From: Sharpea azabuensis DSM 18934
GTDB lineage: Bacteria; Bacillota_I; Bacilli_A; Erysipelotrichales; Coprobacillaceae
Length of the DNA: 45,213 nucleotides
Assembly (NCBI RefSeq): GCF_000702165.1
Contig: NZ_JNKU01000021.1
Location: 1 to 45,213 of the forward strand
Direction: 5' to 3'
The translations under genes were made by a program, and so were the position numbers. The notes under the pieces were generated by a model. The model ran no database searches and was not told the DNA's origin. It was given only the letters and a program-made list of their open reading frames with translations. This document shows positions 20,241 to 37,669 of the stretch, piece by piece (the first letter of the stretch is position 1; the number at the start of each line of letters is the position of its first letter).

Positions 20241-20465
20241 TTATCTTCCTCTTACAAACATACGACTTACAAAAGCCATGTTGATCTCTTTGATTTCACG
20301 TTTTCCATCAATATAGTCACGATACATATCAAAAGGATCTCCAGCCCCAAACACCCCACATCCTGAGCAGTTTTCACAACCTGCTGAATCATCACAATTC
20401 AATGCTTCCTGAATGATCTTGAGACGTTCTTCTCTTGTCGTATCTTTAATGAGTGTACTTTTCAT
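20241..20465 (-). CDS. Small Cys-rich protein of unknown function
   Basis: A 74-aa soluble protein (MKSTLIKDTTREERLKII onward) that I do not recognise. It contains a tight Cys cluster, NCDDSAGCENCSGCGV, with four Cys (pattern Cx5Cx2Cx2C) near residues 22-32. This is suited to a zinc or iron-sulfur site. A conserved-looking C-terminal half follows (DPFDMYRDYIDGKREIKEINMAF). Start: the longer frame at 20489 begins inside the predicted -10 box, so it is rejected; 20465 (AGGGTG 6 nt upstream) or 20471 remain. It has its own promoter and lies between the SDR and flavodiiron genes, which hints at a redox or metal role. Confidence 0.75.
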   Translation of the reverse strand: MKSTLIKDTTREERLKIIQEALNCDDSAGCENCSGCGVFGAGDPFDMYRDYIDGKREIKEINMAFVSRMFVRGR

Positions 20466-20487
20466 ATCCATCACCCTACCTACCATC

Positions 20488-20516
20488 ATACTAGTTCAGT
20501 AGGTTGTTGATGTCAA
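20488..20516 (-). promoter_or_regulatory. Promoter of the Cys-rich small gene, with overlapping inverted repeat
   Basis: Minus strand: TTGACA (-35, 20511-20516), 17-bp spacer, TAGTAT (-10, 20488-20493). The -10 region is flanked by CCTAC (20477-20481) and GTAGG (20500-20504), a 5-bp-arm inverted repeat that could be an operator. Confidence 0.55.
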
Positions 20517-23973: not shown

Positions 23974-23998
23974 ATCATGGTTCGCCATGATTTTTTTC
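23972..23998 (+). terminator. Terminator of the TetR gene
   Basis: AAATCATGG - TTCG - CCATGATTT, perfect 9-bp stem with a TTCG tetraloop and T run; the stem begins inside the stop codon. Confidence 0.93.
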
Positions 23999-24004
23999 TT
24001 TAGG

Positions 24005-24037
24005 CAAAAAAAGAACGTATTCTCGTGAATACGTTCT
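24005..24037 (-). terminator. Terminator of the PFOR gene
   Basis: Perfect 11-bp stem AGAACGTATTC / GAATACGTTCT (24012-24022 with 24027-24037), 4-nt loop, followed on the minus strand by seven T. Confidence 0.93.
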
Positions 24038-24044
24038 ATGTTTA

Positions 24045-29207: not shown

Positions 29208-30317
29208 TTAAATAATGGCATATATTTGTTTGAGCATCTCTTTCACAGAATCTTTGAGTTTTCTATTATTACGGTATTCTTTGGCCTTTTGTATATATTC
29301 TTTGGCATCAGCTTTTCGAAGCAAATTCACTGAATCCCATTTTGCCTGAGGCAATTTCATAAAATATTCCCTGGCCAGTATGAACCTTGGGTATTGCAGA
29401 ACATTATTTATTAGAAGAATGAGCTCTTCCTCATCAAGATAGTCGAGTGCTTGCTGGATATAGTAAAAAAACCATCCTGCAAGTTCAGAAAACAGAATCT
29501 GTTTGATAGGCTGCTTTACGTTTCCCTGATAATGCTTTAAAAATATTAACTGATACTTTTTAATATTGTCGACATCCTCCATTGTGTGCAAAGAAAAACG
29601 ACTTGTATCACCACTCATCTGACGATAGCAATACAGCGCATCAGGTATGAAGCGAAAAGATTCACACTCTGACAAAAGATACAGATTCATAATCTGATCA
29701 TCACCCCAAAATACTTTTTCTACCGTCTTTGAAGAAGGAAGACTTGAAATTAAACTGCAATGATAAACTTTATTAGAAACATTAGTTGTTAGGTGAGCCT
29801 CGTTCCAATTGCTGCATAACAGTTTGGGATATTCGTGAGCATTAAAAGTGTTTCTATCAGTATCCAAGGGTGTCTTGACAAGCGTCACTTTATGGCTTAG
29901 ATGATTATACTTTTTCATAGAGCCAAACTGCATTGCCTGGCAATTTGATTTCATTATTTCTTCATGCAAGCAAGCAAAAACATTTTTATTTGCATAAAAA
30001 TCATCCGCATCACAAAATGTGATATAAGTTCCAGCTGCTTTTTCCACACCATATATTCTTGATTGAAATGCCCCACCATTTTCTTTTCTAAAATATCGAA
30101 AACGCTTGTCATTCAAAGCATATTTTTGGCAAATATCGGATGATCTGTCAGTTGATCCATCATCGATGAGAATGACTTCAAAATCTGTAAACGTTTGTTT
30201 CGCAATGGCATTTAGGCACTTGCTTAAAAACTTCTCACCATTGTATATTGGTACAACAATCGACAACCATGGCTGTGATAAGTCAACATTCACTGTGTTC
30301 TTATTTTTGCAACTCAT
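29208..30317 (-). CDS. Family 2 glycosyltransferase
   Basis: A 369-aa GT-A-fold inverting glycosyltransferase. After about 16 residues it shows WLSIVVPIYNGEKFLSKCL, then the nucleotide-binding VILIDDGSTDRSSD, ENGGAFQSRIYGVEKAAG, and the metal-binding CDADDFY (about 100). The C-terminal half is variable, as expected for acceptor recognition. There is no membrane segment, so it is likely a cytosolic enzyme acting on a membrane-linked or cell-wall glycan. A solitary gene with its own promoter, it looks more AT-rich than its neighbours and is not in a polysaccharide cluster; late acquisition is possible. Confidence 0.9.
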   Translation of the reverse strand: MSCKNKNTVNVDLSQPWLSIVVPIYNGEKFLSKCLNAIAKQTFTDFEVILIDDGSTDRSSDICQKYALNDKRFRYFRKENGGAFQSRIYGVEKAAGTYITFCDADDFYANKNVFACLHEEIMKSNCQAMQFGSMKKYNHLSHKVTLVKTPLDTDRNTFNAHEYPKLLCSNWNEAHLTTNVSNKVYHCSLISSLPSSKTVEKVFWGDDQIMNLYLLSECESFRFIPDALYCYRQMSGDTSRFSLHTMEDVDNIKKYQLIFLKHYQGNVKQPIKQILFSELAGWFFYYIQQALDYLDEEELILLINNVLQYPRFILAREYFMKLPQAKWDSVNLLRKADAKEYIQKAKEYRNNRKLKDSVKEMLKQIYAII

Positions 30318-30370
30318 AATGATTCTCCTAAAAAACTTTTTTAAAAGGATATCCCCTCATATTAATGTAT

Positions 30371-30399
30371 ATTATACAATACTATTTTCTATTTTTCTA
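30371..30399 (-). promoter_or_regulatory. Predicted promoter of the glycosyltransferase gene
   Basis: Minus strand: TAGAAA (30394-30399), 17-bp spacer, TATAAT (30371-30376). The rest of the 280-bp gap holds only the terminator at 30483-30518. Confidence 0.5.
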
Positions 30400-30482
30400 C
30401 TTACGCCATAATCATTTTCAATATCATTCAGAATAATTGAACTCTTCATTTATGAATAAATCCATCATATTGAAGAAAGGCT

Positions 30483-30518
30483 AAAAAAGCGATACCCGGT
30501 CTTAAACCAAATATCGCT
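30483..30518 (-). terminator. Terminator of the YdcF-like gene
   Basis: Minus strand: AGCGATA / TATCGCT outer stem with an inner GGT/ACC stem, followed by six T, about 80 nt past the stop codon. Confidence 0.8.
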
Positions 30519-30597
30519 CAAATATTATTATTGTTTACAAATCCAAATAAATAAGTAATTGCTGACAAATTATAGATACATGCCAATGCTAGTGTTT

Positions 30598-35543: not shown

Positions 35544-35573
35544 ATAAAAAACTAGCAATTCATTGCTAGTTTT
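35544..35573 (-). terminator. Terminator of the second LysR gene, overlapping its stop codon
   Basis: AAAACTAGCAA / TTGCTAGTTTT stem (35548-35558 with 35563-35573), 4-nt loop. The stop codon at 35566-35568 lies in one arm of the stem. Confidence 0.88.
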
Positions 35574-36468
35574 CTGTATGTGCTTTTAAGCATTCAATAT
35601 ATTCCTTCGCAAGAGGTGATAAGGTTGTCTTATCATGTGTTAAATAGCCAATCAACATATAATCATCCACATCCAAAGGAATTGATACAATATTAGGTCC
35701 ATTCAGTTCTTCAGAAATAACCCCTGTTGAGAATGTATAACCATCCATCCCAATCAGCAAATTAAAAAGCGTTGCGCGATCAGTCACCACAAGGTCTTTC
35801 TTGACATCCCTTGTTGATAGGATTTCTTCTGAGAAATAGAACGAATTACGATCTGTCTGTTCATAGGAAAGTCTTGGATAAGGCGCTAAGTCTTCTAGCG
35901 TAATTTTCTTCTTGTTGGCAAGAGGTGAATGTGAGCCAAGGAAAACATGTGGCGTTGCTTTAAAGAGCGGATGAAAGCTTAAATTGTTTTCTTTGAGTGT
36001 ACGTTGAATGATGGTTTCATTGAATTTGTTGAGATAAAGAATGCCTATCTCTGAACGTAGTTTTGAGACATCCTGAATTAAGGCAAAGGTCTGTGTTTCA
36101 CGCAAATGAAATTCATATTCATCTTCCTTATGATTATTCAATAAGTCCACAAAAGCTTCAACCGCAAATGAATAATGCTGACAGCTTACTGCAAATTCCC
36201 TTTTTCCGGGTTTCTTGTTCATATACTTTTCTTCAATAAGCTCTGTCTGTTCAAGAACCTGGCGGGCATAACCTAAGAATTCTTCTCCTTCTTGTGTCAA
36301 TGTCATGCCTTTGTTGTTGCGTCTAAAGATTGTAATGCCAAGCTCGCCTTCAAGTGAATTGAGTGCTTCAGAGAGTGATGGCTGTGTAATAAATAATGAT
36401 TTTGCAGCTTCTGAAAGAGTTCCTTTGGCTGCAATCATGACTACATATCTTAATTGTTGTAATGTCAT
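35566..36468 (-). CDS. LysR-family transcriptional regulator (CynR/YwbI-like)
   Basis: A 300-aa regulator. The N-terminal winged HTH (MTLQQLRYVVMIAAKGTLSEAAKSLFITQPSLSEAL spans 1-36) is followed by a dimer helix and the two-lobed effector domain. Clear start: GGGGGA 5 nt upstream and TATAAT at 36489-36494. The gene is preceded on its strand by the hairpin-rich region 36511-36739. No divergent partner exists, so its target is not indicated by position. Confidence 0.9.
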   Translation of the reverse strand: MTLQQLRYVVMIAAKGTLSEAAKSLFITQPSLSEALNSLEGELGITIFRRNNKGMTLTQEGEEFLGYARQVLEQTELIEEKYMNKKPGKREFAVSCQHYSFAVEAFVDLLNNHKEDEYEFHLRETQTFALIQDVSKLRSEIGILYLNKFNETIIQRTLKENNLSFHPLFKATPHVFLGSHSPLANKKKITLEDLAPYPRLSYEQTDRNSFYFSEEILSTRDVKKDLVVTDRATLFNLLIGMDGYTFSTGVISEELNGPNIVSIPLDVDDYMLIGYLTHDKTTLSPLAKEYIECLKAHTEN

Positions 36469-36510
36469 AAATGTCCCCCGTTTGTCCCATTATACAACAA
36501 TTCTTCTTAG

Positions 36511-36556
36511 AAAAAAGAAAAAGATGGCCGAATGTGTTTGGGAGCTTTCGGTCATC
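36511..36556 (-). terminator. Terminator-like hairpin at the end of the hairpin-rich region
   Basis: Minus strand: GATGACCGAA / TTCGGCCATC (36547-36556 with 36523-36532), one mismatch, 14-nt loop, followed by TTTTTCTTTTTT. It ends whatever is transcribed from the hydrolase gene or from the 36557-36739 region, and sits just before the LysR promoter. Confidence 0.7.
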
Positions 36557-36739
36557 CGTTCTATAGAATCTATTGGAGTTTAGATTCATCCCCTATAGAA
36601 GAATATTCTAACTGATGGTAAAAAGGGGAATCCATCAGCTTCTCTCTATAGCTATATGTTTGGCTTATAGCTATGGCTGCAGTGTAGCATTATTTTTACA
36701 CTTTGAAAAGAATTTATTGCCTATTCTTAGCTATAGGAA
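36557..36739 (-). ncRNA. Candidate structured RNA or long structured 3' UTR
   Basis: This 183-bp gap contains a chain of perfect or near-perfect inverted repeats: 36559-36572 with 36581-36600 (14 bp interrupted by one 6-nt bulge), 36612-36618 with 36632-36638 (CTGATGG/CCATCAG), 36648-36656 with 36666-36674 (9 bp), 36681-36686 with 36697-36702, and 36720-36724 with 36733-36737. The bulge CATCCC(C) can pair with GGGGA in the loop at 36625-36629, as in a pseudoknot. The region ends in the terminator at 36511-36556 on the minus strand, so I place it on that strand. No promoter of its own was clear, and it encodes no sensible protein. It could also be a decayed mobile element. Confidence 0.35.
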
Positions 36740-37669
36740 TTAACTATTGAGCTTACTTAAGATCCAGTGATAGAGATCTTCCTGGACTGTCTGATAGTCA
36801 AGCTCATTTAAGATTTCATGACGATCTTCAGGATAGAATTTCATCTGGATATCACGAATATGTGCCTTCTTGAAACGTTTATACACTTTGCGTACACCCT
36901 TTTCAAATCCACCAACAGGATCCTTGCTTCCACTTACAAAAAAGACTGATAGATTAGATGGAATCTCTTGTGTATGTTTTAGCTTCTGGACTTTGGAAAT
37001 AAGGGAAAAGAGCGTATAGAAACCATTAAGCGTAAAGATGAAGGTGTTGAGAGGATTAGCACAATATTCATCAACAACCTGATTATCCCTTGTTAGCCAG
37101 TCAAATTTTGTTCTTGCTGGTGTAAAAGGCTTGTTGTTGGATTCTAATGCCATTTTATTGACAAATGGTGAACGATACATCCATCCTTTTCTTTTCGCTA
37201 ACAGCTTACATACCAGCTTACCAAAAGCTAATTTGTAGCCAGCCTGATAGCCTGTTCCCATGATAATTGCCCCTTGAAGATGCAGGCCGTATTGCTGAAT
37301 ATAGAGCGTTGTTAAAAAACTGCCCATGGAATGTCCAAGAATATAATAAGGCTTGTCTGGATATTGCTTTGATATAATATTTCTGAGCTTTTCAACATCC
37401 TTGACAAGATAGACTTCATGTTCTTCAAAGAAATAACCAAGTTCATCCTGATTTCTTACAGACTGCCCATGTCCGAGCATATCATGACCAACAACCATGA
37501 TGCCCTTGTTTGCAAGATATGAGGCAAAACGATCATATCGTCCAATAAAATCATTCATTCCGTGAACAATCTGAACAATGGCCACAATATCACCTTCTGG
37601 CTGCCATGTGACATAGTGAATTTGTGTACGCATATTACTTGAAGTAAAATAATCTTCTTTCTTTATCAT
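36740..37669 (-). CDS. Alpha/beta hydrolase (lysophospholipase / monoacylglycerol lipase type)
   Basis: A 309-aa serine hydrolase of the Hydrolase_4 group. The oxyanion region is IVHGMNDFIGRYDRFASYLA (about 33-52), then GHDMLGHGQS. The nucleophile elbow is GHSMGSF (Ser about 114), the acid lies in FVSGSKDPVGG and the catalytic His in YPEDRHEILNE near residue 284. No signal peptide, so it is intracellular. Likely substrates are lysophospholipids, monoacylglycerols or other short esters. GGGAGG precedes the start; a terminator separates it from the dehydrogenase upstream. Confidence 0.92.
   Translation of the reverse strand: MIKKEDYFTSSNMRTQIHYVTWQPEGDIVAIVQIVHGMNDFIGRYDRFASYLANKGIMVVGHDMLGHGQSVRNQDELGYFFEEHEVYLVKDVEKLRNIISKQYPDKPYYILGHSMGSFLTTLYIQQYGLHLQGAIIMGTGYQAGYKLAFGKLVCKLLAKRKGWMYRSPFVNKMALESNNKPFTPARTKFDWLTRDNQVVDEYCANPLNTFIFTLNGFYTLFSLISKVQKLKHTQEIPSNLSVFFVSGSKDPVGGFEKGVRKVYKRFKKAHIRDIQMKFYPEDRHEILNELDYQTVQEDLYHWILSKLNS

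Follow-up and report, generated by a model that had tools for sequence, protein, structure and literature searches.

The genes for an alpha/beta hydrolase (Hydrolase_4; positions 36740..37669) and a LysR-family regulator (35566..36468), both on the minus strand of the gut bacterium Sharpea azabuensis DSM 18934, are separated by a gap that extends over positions 36469-36739 of the window, that is, of the whole 45,213-nucleotide stretch of DNA analysed here. The hydrolase gene is the upstream neighbour of the gap and the LysR gene the downstream one, and beyond the latter lies a tRNA-Leu(gag) gene. This gene order is common to S. azabuensis and Sharpea porci, the sole other member of the genus among the genomes compared. 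Between the two species the hydrolase and LysR genes are 79% and 91% identical, respectively, and the adjacent hydrolase protein is 85% and the LysR protein 99.3% identical; the regulator is under unusually strong constraint. A preliminary description of the 229-nt segment 36511-36739 had read its closely packed inverted repeats as a possible undescribed structured RNA, naming a small RNA (sRNA), a structured 3' UTR of the hydrolase mRNA and a decayed mobile element as the options.

Conservation and folding of the segment

In ungapped alignment the segment is 93.8% identical between the two species, as against 54.5% (539/989) at the four-fold degenerate sites of eight neighbouring genes, which indicates that it is under selection. 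The conservation is unevenly distributed: a block running from 36674 on reaches 96.3% ungapped identity, whereas the preceding 65 nt show 87-89% and the LysR leader that follows shows 81%, and all 68 positions of 36511-36578 are identical (68/68). Other long gaps of the window reach 94% identity, but the part of the contig in which they lie is better conserved, and two or more of them contain genes; among the local gaps (30-45 kb) without a tRNA or other gene, the one with the hairpins is the best conserved. Since the segment differs between the species by indels of 1, 1 and 2 nt, which shift and break every reading frame, a protein product is excluded. No short open reading frame is kept between the two species on either strand of the segment, in agreement with the earlier remark that no protein frame makes sense here.

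Elsewhere in the window, a small conserved open reading frame on the minus strand (20241-20489; 82 amino acids from its first ATG, although probably shorter) carries the cysteine cluster CENCSGC and sits between the genes for a flavodiiron-type protein and a short-chain dehydrogenase, in a gap that is 94% identical to that of S. porci. A glycosyltransferase family 2 gene, together with the gap upstream of it (29208-30597), is missing from the corresponding place in S. porci, where the flanking aligned blocks abut; this region would be a lineage-specific insertion or loss.

The folding strength of the segment is high on both strands. On the minus strand the 229 nt fold with -57.3 kcal/mol (z -4.1; 0/200 shuffles as good) and on the plus strand with -65.8 kcal/mol (z -3.3; 1/200 shuffles as good), the S. 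porci orthologue giving z values of -3.5 and -4.1 for the two strands. After correction for composition, the segment ranks 4th and 7th among 394 windows of the contig, both strands considered, and several of the other top-folding windows contain a terminator, a 5S rRNA gene or a tRNA gene. The good folding of the whole gap on the plus strand was counted against a minus-strand sRNA. The strongest fold of the window, at 23974-24044, is an ordinary pair of adjacent terminator-like hairpins between converging genes.

Ends and hairpins of the predicted RNA

Promoters were sought on both strands with an approximate sigma-A matrix, whose weights follow the consensus. With both strands taken together, the top promoter-like site of the region is, in either species, an extended -10 element on the minus strand, TGC-TACACT at 36681..36689 (TGC-TATAGT in S. 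porci), which ranks within the top 0.05% (S. azabuensis) and 0.015% (S. porci) of window positions. A -35-like TTTTCA, identical in the two species, lies 17 nt before the -10 on the same strand (36704..36709); it is a poor element, a point that counts against the sRNA. The transcription start predicted from the consensus falls at 36674, which is at the same time the first base of a 9-bp hairpin and the start of the conserved block. At the other end, an intrinsic terminator on the minus strand (36511..36556), identical in both species, consists of a hairpin at 36523-36556, termed P7 (4+5 bp with one A-C mismatch and GCUCCC in its loop, 36540-36545), followed by UUUUUCUUUUUU, a run of 12 pyrimidines that ends at 36511; the minus-strand T-run TTTTTCTTTTTT, noticed beforehand, lies at 36511-36522. 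The stem amounts to only -8.7 kcal/mol on the minus strand, as against -15.7 for the plus-strand hairpin, and this too was held against the sRNA. A distance of 42 nt separates the terminator from the start codon of lysR, and downstream of the terminator a TATAAT on the minus strand (36489..36494), kept in S. porci and accompanied by a weak -35, probably belongs to the promoter of the LysR gene itself. No second good terminator was found between the hydrolase stop codon and P7, so that read-through transcripts of the hydrolase gene probably end at P7 as well.

Promoter, conserved block and terminator are thus in register, and together they have the layout of a free-standing sRNA gene. Its length would be about 164 nt (36511..36674, minus strand), and its predicted product folds with a z of -3.8 in S. 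azabuensis and -3.9 in S. porci. From these sequence features we consider it quite probable that an sRNA gene lies on this strand. The idea of an undescribed structured RNA transcribed from the minus strand is therefore well supported by selection, by a promoter-like start, by a terminator and by the absence of an Rfam match, with the qualification that the RNA would occupy about 36511-36674 and not the whole gap, the 5'-most hairpins being promoter DNA.

Four main hairpins, P2, P3, P6 and P7, are supported as helices, all on the minus strand. P2 (36648..36674) is the perfectly paired 9-bp stem seen beforehand, with GCCAAAC in its loop; 9/9 pairs are kept in S. porci, and taken alone it has a z of -3.9. 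P3 (36611..36639; 8 bp, loop AUUCCCCUUUUUA, with the C-rich motif at 36625-36630) keeps 7/8 pairs and has a z of -4.6 alone. P6 (36559..36600) is the 14-bp bulged stem that had been described, resolved here into 8+6 bp around a 6-nt bulge; it presents CUCC in its loop (36575-36578) and keeps its pairs bar one beside an indel, with a weak z of -1.1 alone. The pairs lost in S. porci are this one and the terminal G-U of P3, which becomes G-G; all others are kept. Not all of the hairpins originally listed stand up in this way: the one at about 36681-36707 (AGTGTA/TACACT) is broken in S. porci and overlaps the apparent -10 element, and a weak one at 36596-36610 competes with the bulged stem.

The proposed complementarity between the loop of the 36611-36639 hairpin, which reads GGGGA on the plus strand, and the bulge of 36559-36600 was also found. 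In the minus-strand RNA, the P6 bulge GGGAUG (36587..36592; GGGAAG in S. porci) is complementary to the UCCC of the P3 loop, the UCCC and GGGA forming four invariant pairs, with a fifth in S. porci, and a pseudoknot or an internal mask may result. With two orthologues only, and stems that hardly vary, no pair is changed on both sides; covariation therefore neither supports nor contradicts the model. Because the two species have different lowest-energy folds around P3/P4, the structure model is provisional.

Distribution and alternative explanations

A DNA search of the S. azabuensis genome and 98 relatives returned only the Sharpea pair and a 26-bp match in one relative (G009), which overlaps the poly-T end. 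Covariance-model searches, run on two overlapping sets of genomes (315 from the order, 395 from the class), likewise found the RNA only in Sharpea, the remaining matches, with E values of about 0.003 to 0.09 per genome, being at chance level over that many genomes. The loci downstream of hydrolase orthologues in other genera, and those of LysR orthologues in other genera, showed neither synteny nor a match to the model. No Rfam family reached its gathering score, the only matches being two eukaryotic RNAs at chance level and far below their cut-offs, and the Rfam models of LhrC, RsaE/RoxS and FsrA were absent among matches up to E 5. In the case of 6S RNA, the region gave no match to the model, and the 6S-like RNA of both Sharpea genomes is located elsewhere: the match at C3:6693-6852 (42.3 bits, E 3e-7), just below the Rfam cut-off of 46.4 and present in both genomes, is probably a divergent 6S RNA.

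A decayed mobile or repeat element would have in its favour the recurring palindromic words of the region. The four copies of CTATAG, at 36561, 36593, 36646 and 36731, are indeed there (4/9 of the window copies fall in the hairpin region), and TAGCTATA is commoner than expected in the window (7 vs 1.9), 4/7 of its copies lying inside the hairpin region. Nevertheless, the genome holds one full copy, the next best match being 24 nt long with an E of 0.14, and no dispersed copies; the region occupies the same place in S. porci, where it is strongly conserved, and it has no relative in phage and plasmid collections or in a pattern scan of viral contigs. A mobile origin is thus highly improbable. 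Somewhat less so, but still very unlikely, is an RNA from the plus strand whose GGA loop motifs would titrate an RNA-binding protein such as CsrA or sponge C-rich sRNAs, in the manner of RosA and RsaI. This would make use of the strong plus-strand fold, of the strong hairpin at 36523-36556 and of the three loops that on this strand read GGGGA, GGAG and GGGAG. Titration of the CsrB/RsmZ type is however at odds with the absence of CsrA, which was not found in either Sharpea genome (control genomes gave matches), and the plus strand has no suitably placed conserved promoter-like site and no terminator at its other end, the T-run fitting the minus strand only.

Two further explanations also place the RNA on the minus strand. 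If the region were a structured 3' UTR belonging to the hydrolase mRNA, its hairpins and terminator would end and stabilise that transcript, or an sRNA would be cut from it, with no promoter of its own; in favour of this, the hydrolase gene is the immediate upstream neighbour in the same orientation, and P7 is the first good terminator after its stop codon. What makes us regard this explanation as unlikely is the good promoter-like site whose position in both species fits the beginning of the conserved block exactly, together with the fast divergence of the hydrolase gene (79%), which the RNA does not share, and the lack of the RNA at hydrolase orthologues in other genera. An sRNA and a function as 3' UTR may, in addition, coexist. 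An aptamer-like pseudoknotted lysR leader with a switchable terminator, that is, a riboswitch or attenuator, might be read into the pseudoknot-like fold followed by a terminator shortly before the lysR start codon, into the alternative pairing of the bulged stem and P3 in the two species and into the 99.3% conservation of the LysR protein. Such a riboswitch is conceivable, yet less likely given that a conserved TATAAT of lysR itself follows the terminator; moreover, the RNA is missing at LysR orthologues in other genera and no known riboswitch class matches it, and we give this explanation only a slim chance. Overall, a free-standing minus-strand sRNA gene with C-rich loops is the best explanation and, with slightly better than even confidence, the one we adopt. 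Of the three options raised at the outset the sRNA therefore fits best, probably as a new sRNA gene that is restricted to the genus and functionally of a known kind.

C-rich loops and a possible mode of action

Three of the four main loops of the sRNA carry an invariant C-rich motif: UUCCCC in P3, CUCC in P6 and CUCCC in the terminator. These are mostly unpaired in the prediction for S. azabuensis; in that for S. porci most of the P3 motif pairs with an internal GGGGAA, which was weighed against the sRNA. Stretches of 164 nt with at least three such motifs are rare in the window (0.4-1.7%). However, three are also present in 13% of the sequences obtained by dinucleotide shuffling of the RNA, which again tells against the sRNA, so that the motif count alone is modest evidence, to which the placement of the motifs in loops and their invariance add.

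In low-GC Firmicutes, C-rich motifs of sRNAs are a documented means of blocking Shine-Dalgarno sequences (PMC4132741; PMC8216469), the staphylococcal RsaE being one such sRNA (PMC8216469), and RsaE, FsrA, RNAIII and SprD carry the same kind of motif as LhrC (PMC4132741; PMC8216469). Because sRNAs of these bacteria use such motifs, we propose translational repression in trans by pairing of the loops with Shine-Dalgarno sequences. The extended -10 promoter would direct transcription from near 36674, and the U-tailed hairpin would terminate it at 36511; the resulting transcript of about 164 nt would contain the four main hairpins. The loops of P3, P6 and the terminator would expose UUCCCC, CUCC and CUCCC, and these would most likely pair with the G-rich Shine-Dalgarno sequences of mRNAs encoded elsewhere, thereby blocking translation. 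The GGGA bulge of P6, by pairing with the P3 loop, could mask the P3 site until a target displaces it. For this mechanism, with its action in trans and its loops as pairing sites, we judge the chances to be about even. A more specific version, in which a genus-specific sRNA masks itself, having three redundant anti-Shine-Dalgarno loops, one of them shut by the internal loop-bulge pseudoknot and opening on a target or other signal, and works with no detectable Hfq or CsrA, is speculative and, in our estimate, improbable. In this regard, Hfq was not detected in the S. azabuensis genome, whereas control genomes gave matches. A target search with the complements of two loops gave candidates, among them sites that in both Sharpea species precede the start codons of the genes for a sorbose-type PTS IIC, a PTS EIIA_2, a response regulator and a ParA/CpsD-like ATPase; since any G-rich Shine-Dalgarno sequence would match, these candidates are leads only.

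The closest likeness among known systems is to LhrC of Listeria monocytogenes, likewise a free-standing sRNA from a low-GC Firmicute; it has C-rich motifs in three redundant copies, and its terminator loop contains one of these (PMC4132741). The Sharpea RNA differs from LhrC in being present in a single copy instead of five, in its greater length (about 164 nt), in having no similarity at the Rfam level and in the internal GGGA segment that can pair with its own C-rich loop. RsaE/RoxS and FsrA share the single-stranded C-rich motifs complementary to Shine-Dalgarno sequences (PMC8216469; PMC4132741), but the Sharpea RNA has no sequence or Rfam match to them and its hairpins follow another order. 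The sponge RNAs RosA and RsaI also contain a G-rich segment complementary to the C-rich loops of sRNAs (PMC8216469), whereas in Sharpea this segment and the loop belong to one molecule, and the RNA would mask itself, not another sRNA.

A keyword search of the literature, which was not exhaustive, found no report on regulatory sRNAs of Erysipelotrichia. Sharpea is described in one source as enriched in the rumen of sheep with low methane yield (PMC5069950). If our reading of this locus is true, the strategy of C-rich loops would extend to the class Erysipelotrichia, outside the classical Bacilli models, and the Sharpea RNA would be a compact system in which to study the action of such sRNAs without detectable Hfq.
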